This document shows positions 1,483 to 17,566 of a stretch of DNA of 21,350 bases, piece after piece. The DNA is taken from positions 1-21,350 of IMG/VR virus record IMGVR_UViG_3300022200_008294; one strand, given 5' to 3'. The position numbers were made by a program, and so were the translations under genes. The notes below the pieces were generated by a model. It saw only the letters and a program-made list of their open reading frames with translations, was not told where the DNA came from and ran no database searches. Within the stretch, counting starts at the first letter, position 1. Each line of letters starts with the position of its first letter. The DNA is from a virus.

Positions 1483-3625
1483 AAATCATTATGTGGACAA
1501 TCAAAAAATTTACCAACAAAGCGGATACTCTGTAATTCCCGGAAAATATGCTAGCAAGATGCCGGCTATAAAGAATTGGTCTGAATACTGTTATAGGATG
1601 CCAACAGTTGATGAGGTTGTTTCATGGACGAAAAACTTTAGCCAGACTAATTTAGATCTAGCCTTGGGGGAGTCGTCAGGCGTGGTAGCATTGGACATTG
1701 ATTGCGTAGACCAAAGAATTTTGGACGTTATCATGCCAATGTTACCAACTAGCCCTGTGGTAAAGAAAGGTAGTAAAGGGGAAACGAGATTTTTTAGGTT
1801 TTCAGGTGAAAGCACTGACTCTCTAAAGTTTAATGGTGACATGGTGGTTGAAATTTTGTCTACGAATAAAAAGACAACGATACCGCCAAGTCGCCACCCT
1901 AACGGCTTAGATTATGTATGGACCTCTGAGAAGACTCTTTTAACTATTGATAAAAATGATCTTCCAATATTACCACCGGCTTTATTTGCTCACATAGGCT
2001 CAGTACTCCGTAGCAAATTTCCGGACCTTGTACAGGCTTCTTTAGGTAAGGTCTTTTCGGGTAGAAATGATGAATTATCCTCTCTTTGTGGCACTTTGAT
2101 AAAAGAGGGGATACCTATAGGAAACGCTGTAAACGATCTTATACAATTTGATTTAGAGACAAATGAGCCACCTTTATTTACAGATGCAAATGAATTTAGA
2201 CATACGGAGCCAGTAACAAATGCGTTGGTTTTTTACAGTAATCACTTATCTACTATTAATAACAGACATTATAGAGATTCAAACGCCTACGAACTCCCGA
2301 TTATGCCGAAAGTGTCAAAAAATGACACAAATGGAGGGGAAGAGGGAAAAGCGCCGGTGGCACCGAAAAAACCAAAGCAAAGAAATGTAAACGATATAAT
2401 GTCACTTGCCCCTATTGTGCTAAAGACTCTACATACAACCCTGTTAAATAACAGTTGGATAAAGCAGCCCGATCTTGCCCTAGGTGCAGTTCTTACTTTA
2501 GTAAGTACTCTGACTTCTAGAAAGATTGTTTTTCAGGGCTTGTCACCTAACTTGTATGTGCTTAATATTTCACCTTCTGGCTCTGGAAAAGACAAGCCTC
2601 AAAGCTTTGTTAAGGAAATCTTAATAGACATGAGAGCCGATTCAATGCTAGGTGCAGGAGATTATGTTAGCGATGCCTCCCTTATGGATGGCTTGGCAAA
2701 CAAGCCAGTAAGGTTAGACATTTTAGACGAAGCAGGTGGAATTTTAAGAACGGTTAACTCATCTAAAAGTGATTATGGTGGGAAAATGGCAGACATATTA
2801 GCAGAATTATACACAAGTAGTAACACAAAGTACCTAGGTAGACAGACAGCCGAGGGAAACAAAGGAACATGCTATCGACCTAATGTAAACATATTAGCTT
2901 CTACAACACCTGCCGGTTTTAGTGAGGGAGTAAGTCGTCAAGCCATAGAAAAAGGTCTTATGGGGCGTTTTTTGATCTTCCTAGGGGACAATAATGCAGA
3001 AGCAGTTAGACTTCGCTCTTTTCCAAAGCTGCCTACATATGTAAAGGAACAACTTAATTACTGGTATAGTTTTAGGGTTGAGGATCATGTAGAGGAGGCT
3101 TCTCAGCTAGAACTAGGTGGAATTACACAAAGTTTTATAGAAATTAACGCATCTAGGGGCGCTGAAGAGGAATTAGATGTAATATTTGCAAAATTAGACG
3201 ATTTAAGACGAGAAACTAAACAAGATGATCCTAAATTACCCATTATTGCCCGTTTGTATCAACAAATGGTCAAGTTAGTCATAGTAAGTGCGTGTTGCCG
3301 AACAGTACAGGATGTACCAGTCATTCAGAAAAAGGATGTAGATTTTGCATACGCTCTTATTATGTACTACTATGAAACTATTGGAGAAGTCGTGGATAAG
3401 TATATTTTTGAAAATAAGACGCAAATGAATAGCCAAAAAGTTATCAATACAATTGCAGATAATGGTGGTTTTATGATAAAAGAAGAATTGTATAAGAAAA
3501 CTAGAACGCTTACGAAACGAGAAAGAGATAACATTTTAGAAGACCTTTTAGCTTCTGGCTTGATAACTAGGGATCTAGAGACTATGGATGGTGTTCAGAA
3601 TATAATTTTTAGGAGTGTAAAATGA
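1460..3625 (+). CDS. primase-polymerase fused to DUF3987-type ATPase (replicative primase/helicase)
   Basis: This 721-residue protein is likely the phage's primase and helicase, laying RNA/DNA primers and moving along DNA at the fork. Residues about 15-160 match the bifunctional primase-polymerase (Prim-Pol) domain: an opening like QQSGYSVIPG, the catalytic ALDID (D79, D81), a later acidic residue in VEIL (E131) and the typical PPSRHPNG (142-149). A helical linker with a GRNDELSSLCGTL segment (201-213) follows. The ATPase core has Walker A SPSGSGK (371-377) and Walker B LDILDE (419-424), the DUF3987 pattern. The last 60 residues resemble a winged helix. The start is set by AAAGGAGAG (1445-1453) seven bases before the ATG. 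In the Prim-Pol motif the usual GxHxYF is replaced by GETRFF (107-112), which could alter primase activity. Confidence 0.85.
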   Translation: MQTVETSKNHYVDNQKIYQQSGYSVIPGKYASKMPAIKNWSEYCYRMPTVDEVVSWTKNFSQTNLDLALGESSGVVALDIDCVDQRILDVIMPMLPTSPVVKKGSKGETRFFRFSGESTDSLKFNGDMVVEILSTNKKTTIPPSRHPNGLDYVWTSEKTLLTIDKNDLPILPPALFAHIGSVLRSKFPDLVQASLGKVFSGRNDELSSLCGTLIKEGIPIGNAVNDLIQFDLETNEPPLFTDANEFRHTEPVTNALVFYSNHLSTINNRHYRDSNAYELPIMPKVSKNDTNGGEEGKAPVAPKKPKQRNVNDIMSLAPIVLKTLHTTLLNNSWIKQPDLALGAVLTLVSTLTSRKIVFQGLSPNLYVLNISPSGSGKDKPQSFVKEILIDMRADSMLGAGDYVSDASLMDGLANKPVRLDILDEAGGILRTVNSSKSDYGGKMADILAELYTSSNTKYLGRQTAEGNKGTCYRPNVNILASTTPAGFSEGVSRQAIEKGLMGRFLIFLGDNNAEAVRLRSFPKLPTYVKEQLNYWYSFRVEDHVEEASQLELGGITQSFIEINASRGAEEELDVIFAKLDDLRRETKQDDPKLPIIARLYQQMVKLVIVSACCRTVQDVPVIQKKDVDFAYALIMYYYETIGEVVDKYIFENKTQMNSQKVINTIADNGGFMIKEELYKKTRTLTKRERDNILEDLLASGLITRDLETMDGVQNIIFRSVK

Positions 3626-3825
3626 GTAAAGTATTAATACTTAATGAAGTATACGATCAAATGAAAAACCAAGACCTGTTAATATGTACACTAGAAGAAA
3701 AGTTGCGTATTGCAACCGAGGCTTTTAATAAAATAATTGAAGATGTATGGTTAGAACAGGCTGTAGATATTGCATCAGAGGCTTTAAGCTCGATAGAGCG
3801 TTGTGAGACCGGAGGTCGAACGTGA
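3622..3825 (+). CDS. helical hypothetical protein (67 aa)
   Basis: This is an unrecognised 67-residue protein that looks almost wholly alpha-helical, with a possible short coiled coil around residues 20-55. It begins in an ATGA overlap with the stop of the primase gene, with AGGAG (3611-3615) upstream. It ends in a GTGA overlap with the next gene, so all three are probably co-translated. Its position directly behind the primase suggests a replication accessory role, which is inference from position only. Confidence 0.65.
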   Translation: MSKVLILNEVYDQMKNQDLLICTLEEKLRIATEAFNKIIEDVWLEQAVDIASEALSSIERCETGGRT

Positions 3826-4061
3826 AATTAGGAGCATTAGAATATTTTTGTAACTGTATAACGAAGAACTACAAAGAACACGTTACAGCACCTGACTCTG
3901 AGGGTAACTGTGTTTACTGTGGTCACCATGCAATAAAGCGCCAGATAACAATGGTTGACATTAGATACCATGAGAAAAACGGTGATAGAATAAACCTTCT
4001 TAAAAGGGAATATTTAGAAGTAATAATTAAAGATCGTCGTTATGCTGAAAAAGTAAACTAA
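3822..4061 (+). CDS. small Cys-rich, probably zinc-binding protein (79 aa), GTG start
   Basis: This 79-residue protein is of unknown function. It has CNC near residues 9-11 and C30-x-x-C33-G-H-H, a likely zinc site that mirrors the one in the product of 1213-1482 (CTC followed by CNNCGHY). The remainder is basic and partly helical. The GTG at 3822 is chosen because GGAGGT (3811-3816) precedes it at the right distance and the codon overlaps the upstream stop as GTGA. The two Cys-rich proteins flank the primase gene, which hints at related roles near DNA or RNA, but no activity can be named. Confidence 0.65.
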   Translation: MKLGALEYFCNCITKNYKEHVTAPDSEGNCVYCGHHAIKRQITMVDIRYHEKNGDRINLLKREYLEVIIKDRRYAEKVN

Positions 4062-5451: not shown

Positions 5452-5513
5452 TACGATTTATAACGAACGTGGCGTTGTTAGCAGCGTTAGCTTATGTAGC
5501 GAGGAATATTTAA
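5448..5513 (+). CDS. possible 21-residue single-span membrane peptide
   Basis: A 21-codon frame opens in an ATGA overlap with the preceding stop and closes in a TAATG overlap with the next ATG, exactly filling the gap between two genes. The encoded peptide has a basic residue at position 3 and a hydrophobic run (VALLAALAYVA) long enough to cross or enter a membrane. The SD is weak (GGTAAG). The precise fit at both ends supports translation; the function is unknown. Confidence 0.4.
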   Translation: MIRFITNVALLAALAYVARNI

Positions 5514-5653
5514 TGGCAACAGCAAAAGAAAGACAGATTGCAAGAGATAAAAAGGTTGATGAGAACGGAAATAAACTTTCTGTTATTTTAGAGAAACTAG
5601 AGAAACTTGGGGATTTAATTGAGTCTCTTAAAGATAAAAAGGGTAAGAAATGA
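5513..5653 (+). CDS. basic helical hypothetical protein (46 aa)
   Basis: This 46-residue Lys/Glu-rich helical protein is unrecognised. A start at 5513 is preferred over an in-frame ATG at 5435, because GAGGAA (5501-5506) precedes it and the ATG overlaps the stop of the small frame before it. The 5435 start would lie inside another gene and add a stretch unlike the rest of the protein. The stop overlaps the next start (ATGA at 5650). Confidence 0.5.
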   Translation: MATAKERQIARDKKVDENGNKLSVILEKLEKLGDLIESLKDKKGKK

Positions 5654-5945: not shown

Positions 5946-6365
5946 ATGAGTGAAACAACAGAGAAACCAACATTTCAACCTTTAGATGCCGGTGATTACA
6001 TGGTAAGGCTAAGTAGGTTTGAGGAAAAGAAGACTAAAAATGGTGCCGGTGTATTAATTTCATCGGGATTTGAAGTAGTCAATGGTGAGCAAAAAGGTAG
6101 ATTGATCTTCCACAACTTTCTGGTTGAACACACTAACCCAAAGGCACAAGAAATAGGTAATAATCAGTTAGACGATTATTTAAAAGCCGTTGGTGCAGGT
6201 GGTTTAGAAGGTATCAACAACGACAGAACGCTTTTAGAACAGTGGACCGAGATCCCTTTTATTGCCGTAGTAAATATTGAAGAGCCTTCTTCATACAAAG
6301 CCGCTGACGGTACGATGAAAAAGAGTAAGCCTAGAAATAACATTAAAAAGTTTATGGCGCGATAA
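5946..6365 (+). CDS. DUF669 family protein, probable ssDNA-binding/recombination partner
   Basis: This 139-residue protein matches the DUF669 (PF05037) pattern: an N-terminal FQPLDAGDYMVRL strand, EKKTKNGAG followed by a beta strand, FEVVNGEQKGRLIFHNF, HTNPKAQEIG with a helix, a middle helix ending in GAGGL, and a final RNNIKKFMAR. Proteins of this family are found beside phage recombinases and exonucleases and are thought to bind single-stranded DNA with an OB-like fold. That role is family knowledge, not shown here. The start is certain (AAGGAG, 5935-5940). It is the last gene before the long non-coding stretch. Confidence 0.82.
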   Translation: MSETTEKPTFQPLDAGDYMVRLSRFEEKKTKNGAGVLISSGFEVVNGEQKGRLIFHNFLVEHTNPKAQEIGNNQLDDYLKAVGAGGLEGINNDRTLLEQWTEIPFIAVVNIEEPSSYKAADGTMKKSKPRNNIKKFMAR

Positions 6366-6659
6366 AAAGCCCATGTAACACCGAAACTGATAATTCGGAG
6401 TTAGTTGCAAAAGGGCTGATGCTCCTTACTAGGGAAAAGCTATCCTGCTAATGTTAAACGGTCAACCCTGAGTAAGGTTTAAAACTGCTCGTTTAAGGCG
6501 TAACCTGCCTCTCGACCGCTTTTCCATGCTTGCTTGGTAATGATAAGTGACGAGTTTAAAAACAGTAAGCTGAAAGTGGTTAGGTTGACGAGCTATCGTT
6601 ATTATTTAGAGACAGAGTGCCGAAGGTACGACTGGCTCAACCGACCTACGGAGGGAGCT
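6366..6659 (+). ncRNA. candidate structured RNA or cis-regulatory leader with pseudoknot potential
   Basis: This 294-base stretch has no convincing gene. My hand count over 6420-6660 gives about 45% GC, against about 25-33% in the next gene. By eye it holds H1 6368-6372/6413-6417 around a 9-bp hairpin (6376-6385/6394-6403, one A-A mismatch); A 6424-6430/6471-6477 (7 bp); B 6433-6440/6518-6525 (8 bp); C 6454-6460/6490-6496 (7 bp); D 6496-6499/6507-6510; E 6528-6534/6564-6570 (7 bp, one G-U); F 6583-6588/6637-6642 (6 bp); and a hairpin with a GAA loop (6613-6634). Helix A crosses B and C, a pseudoknot. No match to group I intron, RNase P, tmRNA, tRNA or hammerhead consensus was found. Single helices of this length can arise by chance; the clustering and base composition are the argument. 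It may act as a leader of the following genes, a separate RNA, or part of an origin. Confidence 0.4.
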
Positions 6660-6881
6660 ATGAACATAGCGTTATTAGAACAAGAACTAACAGATCTATT
6701 AAATAAAAATCCAGAATTATTTGAACTACAAGCCACTCTTTCTATAGCTTTATCACACATAATAGATCCAGAAGAAAGAATGAACCATGTATTTTCTGAA
6801 ATGGTAAAAAGCTTAGCTACCATGAACTTAATTTTACAACTAACAAATATGGAGTTATCATGTACATCTTTAAAAGTATAA
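6660..6881 (+). CDS. helical hypothetical protein (73 aa)
   Basis: This 73-residue protein is unrecognised, mostly amphipathic helix (ALLEQELTDLLNKN and following). The start at 6660 is chosen because GGAGGG (6650-6655) precedes it. The frame is open upstream to a TTG at 6534 and an ATG at 6539, but that extension lacks an SD and uses rare GC-rich codons unlike this genome, consistent with non-coding RNA sequence there. The 3' end overlaps the next gene by 22 bases. Confidence 0.6.
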   Translation: MNIALLEQELTDLLNKNPELFELQATLSIALSHIIDPEERMNHVFSEMVKSLATMNLILQLTNMELSCTSLKV

Positions 6882-7030
6882 AAGATCCTAATAACAGATT
6901 CGATATATCCGATATAACTTTTGAAATAGATAGTGTAGACCGAGATGACATTGTAGAGCAGTTTTTAATATTTCTAAGTGCATGTGGCTATCTTACAACA
7001 GATTTAAAAGAAGGGATGGACGTAGAATGA
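6860..7030 (+). CDS. acidic hypothetical protein (56 aa)
   Basis: This 56-residue acidic protein is unrecognised, with alternating beta-like and helical segments and no Cys motif. GGAG (6851-6854) lies six bases from the ATG. It overlaps the preceding gene by 22 bases and ends in an ATGA overlap with the polymerase start, so it is probably translated together with the polymerase. Confidence 0.55.
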   Translation: MYIFKSIKDPNNRFDISDITFEIDSVDRDDIVEQFLIFLSACGYLTTDLKEGMDVE

Positions 7031-8748
7031 TATTCTTAGACCAAACATATGAAATTACAATTTGGAATATGGAAATTGGAAAATTAGGACGTTTCGTGGC
7101 AATAGACACAGAGACTACAATGATGCCTTTTTACATGACTCCCGACCTAGTAACAATGCAAGCTTTTTCAGGAGGAAATAATGTCTATTACATACCAGAA
7201 GATCAAATCGGTGCCTTTATGGACTGTCATAGCGATTCTTATTTATTGCTTCAAAACGCCCCTTTTGATATGGACGTACTTTCGAAAAAGTTATCCAGTA
7301 GTGAACGTGTGTATAGAAGTTATGATAATGATCGCGTTCGTGATATTGGTGTATTATACAGGTTATCACACCTTGCTCAACATGGCTTTGTCCCCTTTAA
7401 AAGAAATCTCAGTTTACTTAGCAAAATATATTTAGGGAAGGAATTAGTTAAGGACGAAACTAGAGAGAACTTTGGACAATTTTTAGGGAGTAAAATATCC
7501 TCAATTCCTGATAACTACTTAGAGTATGGTGCGATTGACGTAATTGCGACATATAAAATCTATTTTGCTTTGATAGGTGAAATAAGACCTCACGATAAAC
7601 ATAATAACTTACTGTCCCATGATATCCAAGTAAAGGGTGATTTAGCATTACTTCATATGCACAAAAACGGCATAGGATTTGATCTTTCTCAAAGAGATGG
7701 TTGGTTAGAAGGTGTTGATATTGAGATGCAAAAACATAGAGATATATTGGCTTCATGGGGATGGGTTAGAGGAAGAAAAGGTATAAAGGATGTATTTAAC
7801 GATATTATGGTTAGGCTTGGTATTTCCGATAAATTGCCAAAAACTAGTACTGGAGAGCTGTCTTGTGCAGGAGACGACTTGGCACCATATAGAAAGTATC
7901 AATTCGTTGCCTCCTTCTTGGAATATCAGAGCCTTGAAAAAGCCAGTGGATTTGTTAGGGACATTACGACAAACTGTGTTCATCCACGCTACAATTTACT
8001 GGTAAATACTGGAAGAACTAGTTGCTCAAAACCAAACTTTCAACAGTTACCAAAGTTAGGTGGAATTAGGGAAATGTTTGTTCCCCAAGATAAAGATAAT
8101 ACTTTTATAATAACGGATTACGCGGCAATAGAACTTGCCACTTTAGCTCAAGTTAGTTATAACACCTATGGTTATTCTATTATGATGGATAGGATTAATG
8201 AGGGACAAGATCTCCATAAATACTACGCTTCCGTAATGAATAACTGTGAGATTAAAGACGTTAATAAGCAACAACGACAAGAGGCTAAGGCAGCGAATTT
8301 CGGCTTTCCCGGTGGTCTTGGTGTAGATACCTTCATAGAATTTTCTAATGGTTATGGATTAGATTTAACTAAAGAGAAAGCCAAAGAAATGAAAGACGTT
8401 TGGTTTAACGCTTTTCCAGAAATGGAAGATTATATGAAAAATGAGATTGGACATGTATTCACATTAACAGGGAGAAAACGTGGAAATACTACATTTTGTG
8501 CTGAGAAGAATACTCCTTTTCAAGGTCTTGCAGCGGACGGTGCTAAATTGGCTTTATATAATCTTGACAAAGCCGGGTTTAAAGTGGTTGGATTCGTACA
8601 CGACGAAATCATATGTGAAGTTAAGAAGAGTGATGCTGAGAAATTACTTACAAAACAAGAGCAAATAATGATAGACTCTATGAAGACAGTTGTTCCAGAT
8701 GTGTTAGTCGGTGTTGAATCAAATATTTCAGATTATTATACCAAATAA
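7027..8748 (+). CDS. family A DNA polymerase with 3'-5' proofreading domain
   Basis: This 573-residue replicative polymerase extends primers on phage DNA. The exonuclease domain shows motif I AIDTET (D27, E29), motif II NAPFD (D81) and motif III YGAID (Y167, D171). The polymerase domain shows NTGRTSCSKPNFQQLP (327-342), motif A DYAAIEL (D364), motif B with R417, K421, F425, G426, and motif C HDE (525-527). There is no 5' nuclease domain, as in other phage enzymes. F425 occupies the site of E. coli F762, which in known enzymes favours discrimination against dideoxynucleotides. Motif B continues FPGG rather than the usual xxYG, a form I associate with other phage polymerases. The ATG at 7027 (ATGA overlap with the previous gene) is preferred over an in-frame ATG at 6982, which lies inside that gene and adds residues before the natural domain start. 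Confidence 0.92.
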   Translation: MIFLDQTYEITIWNMEIGKLGRFVAIDTETTMMPFYMTPDLVTMQAFSGGNNVYYIPEDQIGAFMDCHSDSYLLLQNAPFDMDVLSKKLSSSERVYRSYDNDRVRDIGVLYRLSHLAQHGFVPFKRNLSLLSKIYLGKELVKDETRENFGQFLGSKISSIPDNYLEYGAIDVIATYKIYFALIGEIRPHDKHNNLLSHDIQVKGDLALLHMHKNGIGFDLSQRDGWLEGVDIEMQKHRDILASWGWVRGRKGIKDVFNDIMVRLGISDKLPKTSTGELSCAGDDLAPYRKYQFVASFLEYQSLEKASGFVRDITTNCVHPRYNLLVNTGRTSCSKPNFQQLPKLGGIREMFVPQDKDNTFIITDYAAIELATLAQVSYNTYGYSIMMDRINEGQDLHKYYASVMNNCEIKDVNKQQRQEAKAANFGFPGGLGVDTFIEFSNGYGLDLTKEKAKEMKDVWFNAFPEMEDYMKNEIGHVFTLTGRKRGNTTFCAEKNTPFQGLAADGAKLALYNLDKAGFKVVGFVHDEIICEVKKSDAEKLLTKQEQIMIDSMKTVVPDVLVGVESNISDYYTK

Positions 8749-16122: not shown

Positions 16123-17253
16123 TTATGCCTTTACTAACTTATTATATCCTATAACAATCTTCCCTATAAAGCCACATAAAGGAGCGCCTACATTTTGTAT
16201 AAGACTTCCTAGTAAACTCTTCTCTCCTGCAATTTGTTTAGCCCAAGCCAAAGCTACAGGTTTAACTAGAGTAGTTAGTAATGTAGAATTTGCCATTGCT
16301 TTTGCAAGATGTTGTGCCCATAGGAAGTAACCAATATATATTTCTGGTCTAGCTTTCATTAGTTCTTCACTAAACGCTTTATCTTTATTATATAGTTCAG
16401 TCGATAGTAATCCTTGTCTATGAAGTTCCGTACATATAACTGTGCCTCCACCACCACCGCCACCTTGTGTGTTAGCCGAAGCTATTACAGCATCTGCGTT
16501 TAATTTAGCACCACGCTCTGTAGCGCCTAATCCGGCATAACCAAATCCAGAGGCTAAAAGCATCTTTTTCTCTTTGGCTGCTTGAGATAGATCAAACTGA
16601 GAATTAGCTGTAGCGTCTTTTTCAACACCTTGCTGAAGTTGCATACCTTGCATTTGTGCATCTCTATTTGCTATAATTAAATCTCTCTCCATGTTACCTC
16701 TAGCCTGAACACCTGAAGCTGCAATGTTTCCTAACTGCGCCCCTGCTGCTTGACCTTTAACACCGCTTCTAGCCATTGCTGCTTGAGCCGCTCTAGACTG
16801 AGATTGAGTACTACCACTTATACCCTCTATACCTTTTTCTTGTCTGGCTAAGTTTTCTGCTGAAGAATACCCTTTAGCCATTTCCGCTGCTTGGTCTTGC
16901 ATACCTCTCATACGGTCATTTTGTTCTTGGCTGATTCTACCTAGACCCTCTTCACCTAAAACTGTTTCCCCAAACTGAATACCTTTAATAGTATCCTGCA
17001 TTTGTTTATCTTCAAAACCGGCTTCACCGTATTGTTGTTTTATCTTTCCCGATACGGTGCTTGTGTCTAAATTATTAAGACTTTGAGCATAATCATAACC
17101 TTTCTGAGTGGCATCCATTGCGTTCTTTCTGGCTGTCCATTGATCGTTAACACCTTTGTTAGCCCCTTTATATTTAGCCGTTGCTGTCTGATAGTCAGTG
17201 AAATTCTTTGTTGCTTTATCTAAAGCTGCCTTACTATATTTACTCTCTGCCAC
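16123..17253 (-). CDS. Ala/Gln-rich virion protein with C-terminal CTELHRQG-type module (376 aa), GTG start
   Basis: This 376-residue protein is in three parts. Residues 1-260 are helical and rich in Ala, Gln and Gly (AAQAAMARSG and similar), as in phage internal virion proteins. A run of seven glycines (264-270) then acts as a linker. The last 106 residues form a different module, beginning VICTELHRQGLLSTELY, continuing with a GYFLWAQHLAKAM helix and ending in a glycine-rich hydrophobic part. I recognise the CTELHRQG pattern as a module seen at the ends of phage virion proteins but cannot name a family. The start codon is GTG (17253), with AAGGAG six bases upstream. It probably belongs to the ejection set. 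Confidence 0.62.
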   Translation of the reverse strand: MAESKYSKAALDKATKNFTDYQTATAKYKGANKGVNDQWTARKNAMDATQKGYDYAQSLNNLDTSTVSGKIKQQYGEAGFEDKQMQDTIKGIQFGETVLGEEGLGRISQEQNDRMRGMQDQAAEMAKGYSSAENLARQEKGIEGISGSTQSQSRAAQAAMARSGVKGQAAGAQLGNIAASGVQARGNMERDLIIANRDAQMQGMQLQQGVEKDATANSQFDLSQAAKEKKMLLASGFGYAGLGATERGAKLNADAVIASANTQGGGGGGGTVICTELHRQGLLSTELYNKDKAFSEELMKARPEIYIGYFLWAQHLAKAMANSTLLTTLVKPVALAWAKQIAGEKSLLGSLIQNVGAPLCGFIGKIVIGYNKLVKA

Positions 17254-17263
17254 TCTGTACTCC

Positions 17264-17566
17264 TTATTTTAAAAATATTACTGTTATTGTAACGCTTACG
17301 CCACCATTGTTATATAAATATATGTAATCACTTGTCCATTCTGTTGTGCCTTTAGTAACCAATCCGTTACCTGTCTGGTTAACTATTATATACCTAGTTG
17401 GTATGAAATTCAAGGAGTTACGGATTCTATACTCAGAAGTAGCTGTAATTGTTACTTCATGTTCAGCGGAGTTAAAATTGTCTCCAAACGTAAGATCTCT
17501 TAAACCAACGGCTAACTGTCTCGTCAAGTTAACCACATCCTTAATTCGCTCTAAATTAATCTTCAT
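17264..17566 (-). CDS. small beta-rich probable virion protein (100 aa)
   Basis: This is a 100-residue protein. A short N-terminal helix (LERIKDVVNLTRQLAVGLRD) is followed by about eight alternating strands rich in Thr, Ile and Tyr, a beta-sandwich-like profile. AAAGGA precedes the ATG by six bases. It sits between the nozzle-like and ejection-type genes with almost no spacing, so a small tail or decoration component is likely. No family was recognised. Confidence 0.55.
   Translation of the reverse strand: MKINLERIKDVVNLTRQLAVGLRDLTFGDNFNSAEHEVTITATSEYRIRNSLNFIPTRYIIVNQTGNGLVTKGTTEWTSDYIYLYNNGGVSVTITVIFLK

Follow-up and report, generated by a model that had tools for sequence, protein, structure and literature searches.

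Compensatory changes among phage contigs indicate that the 294 bases between a DUF669/SSB-like gene and the following small open reading frame (ORF 6660) of a viral record encode a real folded RNA whose fold is conserved. Pieces of this gap recur separately in other contigs, and the gap is a patchwork of RNA modules built around a single conserved core. We class this core as a new RNA family, outside the named ones, whose general kind, the phage pseudoknot RNA, is known. In the reading that we favour, with confidence that is about evenly divided, the core defines a previously undescribed structured-RNA family of tailed phages that most likely acts in cis, as an mRNA leader or as an intercistronic boundary element; its job would probably be to control the messenger RNA of a neighbouring gene.

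The non-coding gap and its surroundings

The window, that is, the whole stretch of DNA that was analysed, corresponds to the complete record of a virus (21,350 bases). A primase/helicase-like, a DUF3799 nuclease-like, and the DUF669/SSB-like gene lie in its left half, together with small ORFs and the gene of a family A DNA polymerase (PolA). The gap runs from the stop codon of the DUF669/SSB-like gene to the ATG at 6660 and holds no convincing ORF, as the first-pass annotation, made from the letters of the window, had stated, and its remark that the region is richer in GC than the next gene is also borne out (45.2% over 6420-6660 vs 27.9%). The folding energy of the + strand of the gap lies modestly beyond chance (z = -2.22 relative to dinucleotide shuffles, 5 of 200 of which were equally good), while the - strand folds no better than its shuffles (z = -0.80). 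The coordinates of the features described below are compiled in Table 1.

Table 1. Genes, modules, and structural elements in and around the non-coding gap of the window.
Feature	Position	Strand	Remarks
DUF669/SSB-like gene, upstream of the gap	5946..6365	+	Matches to PF05037 and to PHROG SSB
Non-coding stretch, DUF669/SSB-like gene to ORF 6660	6366..6659	+	RNA-module mosaic around one conserved core; relatives differ or are without it
Hairpin P0, CCGAA-ACUGAUAA-UUCGG	6381..6398	+	Also in L023 and L062; the L062 copy has a single two-sided change (C-G to U-A)
Module M, between P0 and Pa	6411..6490	+	About 85% identical to L008 5394-5475; partly present in L004
Hairpin in module M, AACC-CUGAGUAA-GGUU	6464..6479	+	Covaries: AGUC/GACU in L008, CGUC/GACG in L004
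Core hairpin Pa, AGGC-GUAACCU-GCCU	6496..6510	+	Two-sided changes in all four pairs (20 copies)
UAACC of the Pa loop, 5' strand of the pseudoknot	6501..6505	+	Partner strand at 6578-6582; paired in 100% of cells
Variable insert, pseudoknot loop 3	6511..6574	+	4-113 nt between the Pa loop and AGU in other copies
Conserved strand AGU-GGUUA-GGUU	6575..6586	+	GGUUA (6578-6582) is the pseudoknot 3' strand
Core hairpin Pb, GACGA-GCUA-UCGUU	6587..6600	+	All cells paired; two-sided changes in four of five pairs
3' module: GAA-loop hairpin (6617-6629) and CAACCGACCUACGGAGG (6638-6654)	6610..6654	+	Conserved with L007
Small ORF (73 aa), likely the first gene after the RNA	6660..6881	+	Homologue at the same place in L007
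Family A DNA polymerase (PolA)	7027..8748	+	PF00476

Fold and covariation of the core

Twenty non-redundant copies of the core can be aligned without gaps once the insert is removed. In their general structure, Pa consists of four base pairs closing a seven-nucleotide loop (G-UNACN-U), the UNACN of this loop pairs with a downstream NGUNA, and Pb has five base pairs and a GCUA loop. Standard pairs occupy 97.1% of the pair cells in this alignment, and in controls in which the structure was slid the pairing falls to 28.6-58.6%. Two-sided changes are present in 10 of the 14 pairs, a figure that none of 500 shuffles reaches, and the double-change cells number 41, compared with 9.6 in the shuffles. 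All five pseudoknot pairs are formed in each of the 20 copies, two of them with two-sided changes, and five sequence pairs occur there: UAACC/GGUUA, UGACC/GGUCA (L094), UCACA/UGUGA (L095, L096, and L099, and also L003 and L017, which are outside the 20-copy alignment), UCACC/GGUGA (L097 and L103), and UAACA/UGUUA (L098). The sequence of Pb ranges from GGCGG/CCGCC in L023 to GAUAA/UUAUC in L072.

These elements fit an H-type pseudoknot followed by the short hairpin Pb, and the lengths (one nucleotide in loop 1 and one in loop 2, five base pairs in stem 2, at least seven nucleotides in loop 3) would allow a coaxial geometry. Within the insert of the window, CUCG at 6511-6514 and CGAG at 6551-6554 may form a further stem. 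The compact core measures about 49 nt, with about 10 conserved unpaired bases, and L065, L068, and L133 carry minimal natural versions of it.

The first-pass annotation had proposed a structured RNA with a pseudoknot in this gap, and was right as to the kind of element and mostly wrong as to the detail. The conserved fold is there, but the covariation lies in Pa, the pseudoknot, Pb, and the accessory hairpins, and the pseudoknot that the relatives support (6501-6505/6578-6582) was absent from its list. The three long helices on which it had built (6433-6440/6518-6525, 6424-6430/6471-6477, and 6454-6460/6490-6496) are perfectly complementary in the window and cross there, yet the relatives give them no support: the second keeps five of its seven pairs in L008, uncompensated, and clashes with the covarying hairpin of module M, while the first and third lack a partner strand in L008 and L004. 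Helix density, offered as the evidence, amounts to four Watson-Crick helices of at least 7 bp against a shuffle mean of 1.98 (P = 0.138), and the crossings are modestly unusual (P = 0.012), so that these helices were suggestive only. The likeness to the topology of nested-pseudoknot ribozymes falls with them, since it depended on helices that are not the conserved ones. The GAA-loop hairpin of the same list stands, with three two-sided changes relative to L007.

Relatives and copies of the core

Relatives with the same gene order were collected by PolA and SSB searches. The gap varies strongly among them, being nearly absent in L005, L006, and most of a larger, more distant group, and other relatives have different non-coding sequence in the same place. 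Two distant relatives (L052, about 3500-4000, and L053, about 3524-3990) carry HNH-like endonuclease genes between SSB and PolA, which, from a reading of the sequence, occupy the gap that elsewhere holds the RNA. Long non-coding stretches also lie downstream of SSB in L003 (724-938), L010 (5418-5540), L052 (3125-3320), and L055 (3625-3810); only that of L003 shows the core, and the others may hold other RNA families. In L010, about 500 nt (1577-2091) interrupt the primase/helicase homologue, as an intron, an insertion, or frame damage might do.

The pieces that recur separately are found in L023, L004, L008, and L007, and the two central ones are AAGGCGTAACCTGCCTC and TGGTTAGGNTGRCGRGCTAYCG. 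An IMG/VR scan for TGGTTAGGNTGRCGRGCTAYCG led to phage contigs outside the SSB-PolA gene order, each with a GTAACC loop upstream, and a final scan in which the pseudoknot positions were left open gave variant copies. In total the core was found 24 times, on 22 phage contigs, each of which carries one copy or two; the duplicates L062/L064, L066/L067, and L093/L101 were counted once, and L065 is related to L093. Two matches of the last pattern, L100 and L102, had no Pb hairpin and were dropped. The conservation of ASCERTAINMENT has to be read with caution: the search patterns behind most of the copies required AGT, AGG, TG, CG, and GCTA, which accounts in part for the invariance of these bases. 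They placed no constraint on any part of Pa or on the bases that pair with the variable positions.

Four copies were found without the 3' pattern (L003, L017, L119, a second copy in the contig of L071, and L133, a second copy in that of L098). They keep the pseudoknot and the Pb hairpin and show AGA/AGU and GCU/GCC/GCUG variants, which indicates that the family is wider than the search patterns. A covariance model trained without these four recovers L133 (E = 3.5e-5) and L017 (E = 0.012). The fold written as a regular expression had no match in 4.35 Mb of Markov sequence, and a fully relaxed fold search returned mostly noise. In L007, the closest relative, a weak core-like match at 5500-5544 (GUCACCU ... 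GUGGUGAGG, model E = 1.2) is perhaps a decayed copy.

Searches of Rfam 15 with the window and its relatives found tRNAs and no relevant family at the gathering threshold, and the scans by E-value gave chance-level matches or none; together with the compensatory changes, this bears out the suggestion of a new phage RNA. With blastn, the region or the core had short chance-level matches or none in INPHARED, plasmids, and E. coli; three of these matches were inspected and set aside, two lying within annotated genes on the opposite strand and the third in a record without annotation. A strict pattern of the UAACC form had no match in GTDB genomes, and the 19 matches of a relaxed pattern, none with the loop partner, were judged to be chance. 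The general form was sought, as UCACA and UCACC, in 795 bacterial genomes of two phyla and was found in none, a scan small enough that prophage copies may well exist. No description of the core turned up when open-access papers were searched by words, a test of limited reach.

Accessory modules

Accessory hairpins that covary flank the core in the window. P0 and Pa adjoin in L023 and L062, where module M is absent between them, and L008 keeps module M and is devoid of the core. Upstream of module M, L004 (560-610) and L008 (5350-5395) share a further module (AATGAC..TAACGAGGCGTTGAT...ACGCCTAC..ATCCT). The Shine-Dalgarno sequence of ORF 6660 is contained in the 3' module, within CAACCGACCUACGGAGG; beyond the window, the sequence CAACCGACCTACGGAGG of this module matched only the contig of L007.

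Gene context and expression signals

The element is intercistronic or stands at the 5' end of a transcript. By a simple rule, a Shine-Dalgarno sequence and a start codon follow Pb by 4-30 nt in 13 of the 24 copies (in the rest they are further off or were not found), and Pa begins 4-14 nt past the upstream stop codon in 9 of the 24. Near-consensus promoters end just upstream of the RNA in L063 (12/12), L062 (11/12), and L070 (10/12), so that transcripts would begin at the RNA or shortly ahead of it, and in L070 the expected start nearly coincides with Pa. The copy of the window showed no promoter.

Downstream, PolA is either the next gene or separated from the RNA by one small ORF in the window, L003, L004, L017, L023, L066, and L071, which agrees with the earlier suggestion of a leader controlling the polymerase genes; a family search with the product of ORF 6660 gave no match. 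Elsewhere the downstream gene encodes NrdB (L062), a dNMP kinase (L070), or a Gp2.5-like SSB (L072), so that replication or nucleotide genes follow the RNA in about 10 copies, and capsid, tail, integrase, or unknown genes adjoin others. The NrdB of L062 (8231-10156), 642 aa long, is interrupted by an insertion of about 320 aa. This insertion has matches among the inserts of PhoH-like and thymidylate synthase PHROGs and is thus probably an intein. In L138, a degenerate copy of the core is flanked by a tRNA and a tRNA-like gene. The tRNA-like sequence, directly 3' of this copy and near a tRNA-Val, spans 17200-17355; it has GGGGAUG...CAUCCCC ends, a T arm, and a long insert, and is not called by ARAGORN.

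Possible functions

The spacing of the core to Shine-Dalgarno sequences and stop codons, the promoters, and the replication-gene neighbours favour a cis-acting leader or boundary element. Such an RNA would form at the 5' end of a message, or set that end, just upstream of the ribosome site of the next gene, and could control the stability or the translation of the message, the target in the window being ORF 6660 and the DNA polymerase. To this core, phages attach further hairpin modules on the 5' and 3' sides, as seen in the window. Against this reading stand the capsid, tail, integrase, and unknown genes beside some copies, the degenerate copy of L138, the several copies with no close downstream start codon, and the lack of a visible promoter at the copy of the window.

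The main rival, which we consider unlikely, is a new class of small self-cleaving ribozyme that would cut polycistronic phage RNA between genes. It is the chief rival because of the compact size of the core, its conserved unpaired bases, its idiosyncratic gene contexts, and the degenerate copy beside tRNA genes in L138; a pseudoknot, a tolerated inserted stem, and the low number of copies per contig would suit it as well, and both pistol and hammerhead ribozymes are found near phage genes (PMC4604425; PMC3088659). Against it stand the lack of a match to the ribozymes of Rfam and of a consistent pistol-like P2 helix around the junction, the rarity of new classes, and the part of the apparent base conservation that the search patterns imposed.

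Were the position between genes incidental, the RNA might instead be processed or transcribed from the gaps to act in trans, for example against a host function. We regard this as quite unlikely: the varied positions, the low copy number, the promoters of its own at three loci, a short run of U after Pb in several copies, and an inverted repeat that follows in L103 agree with it, but Pb and its tail score as a terminator in only one of four scanned loci (L070), and most copies have a Shine-Dalgarno sequence close downstream.

As a special case of action in cis, the element could be a riboswitch or a protein-binding operator: by sensing a nucleotide or a replication protein, it would gate the replication gene downstream. 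The capsid and tail contexts of L065, L093, and L097 fit no shared ligand and a consistent expression platform is lacking, which makes this special case improbable in spite of the PolA, NrdB, dNMP kinase, or SSB genes that follow about 10 copies and of a design, the H-type pseudoknot with an inserted stem, that is known from riboswitches.

That there is no RNA, and that the conserved sequence is a replication-origin element or a coding remnant, is scarcely tenable: the location in the replication region would suit either, and one frame of the conserved strand (that of ORF 6660 in the window) translates as VVR[LV].., but this coding reading is refuted by an in-frame stop in L093 (TGC TAA) and by a frame other than that of the next gene in L023, L063, L065, L068, L070, and L071, the changes are paired across tens of bases, and the occurrence of the element in many gene contexts, in sense orientation with respect to the adjoining genes, makes the origin structure once suggested for this gap unlikely.

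We also put forward, as a tentative and rather unlikely possibility, that the core represents a new class either of self-cleaving ribozyme or of RNA that senses a ligand or a protein, which would be restricted to uncultured tailed phages and would lie between genes, often between replication genes. The structured RNAs of phages are little charted, and this one is compact, covaries strongly, and so far comes only from metagenomic phages, which differ in base composition. Its minimal natural cores of about 49 nt (those of L065, L068, and L133) are ready for bench work. A new ribozyme or riboswitch class would, if true, be notable in itself, and an mRNA boundary element would show phages setting the levels of adjacent genes without extra proteins.

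Comparison with known systems

The leader of the T4 gene 32 mRNA contains an H-type pseudoknot, and preQ1-II type riboswitches are built on an H-type pseudoknot with an inserted stem. By structural analogy, the core resembles the former in its one-nucleotide loop 1, its stem 2 of about 5 bp, its place near the start of a phage message, and its replication context, and differs from it in an unrelated core sequence, the extra conserved Pb hairpin, the variable insert, and contexts that extend beyond SSB. Autoregulation of the gene 32 type was rejected, the RNA following and not preceding the SSB-like gene in the window, L003, L004, L017, L023, and L066. With the preQ1-type riboswitches the structural analogy comprises a short hairpin whose loop pairs downstream, a possible stem in loop 3, and the leader position; the core differs from them in having no Rfam sequence match, varied downstream genes, and no clear expression platform.

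In the pistol ribozyme, the P1 loop pairs with the junction left of P2 and P3 (PMC4604425). The core is likewise small and linked to phage genes, and the loop of its short 5' hairpin is base-paired to a junction strand that comes just before a second hairpin; unlike pistol, it has no P2 flanking the junction, other bases are conserved, a variable insert precedes the junction strand, and it obtains no Rfam score. Membership in the pistol class, which would call for a P2 helix flanking the pseudoknot junction and a right-hand junction of fixed length, is not supported, as the flanks of AGU and Pb, including the A-rich and U-rich ones, do not pair consistently when read by eye. Hammerhead ribozymes also occur in phages, and their sporadic intergenic occurrence with varied neighbours (PMC3088659) is similar to that of the core, whose fold and conserved bases are others and which has no Rfam match to them. 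GOLLD, ROOL, and other large phage or bacterial non-coding RNAs are hundreds of nucleotides long (PMC12286853); the core, at only about 49 nt plus the insert and with no match to them in Rfam, differs in scale and has in common with GOLLD and ROOL that it is a non-coding structured RNA of phages and metagenomes.
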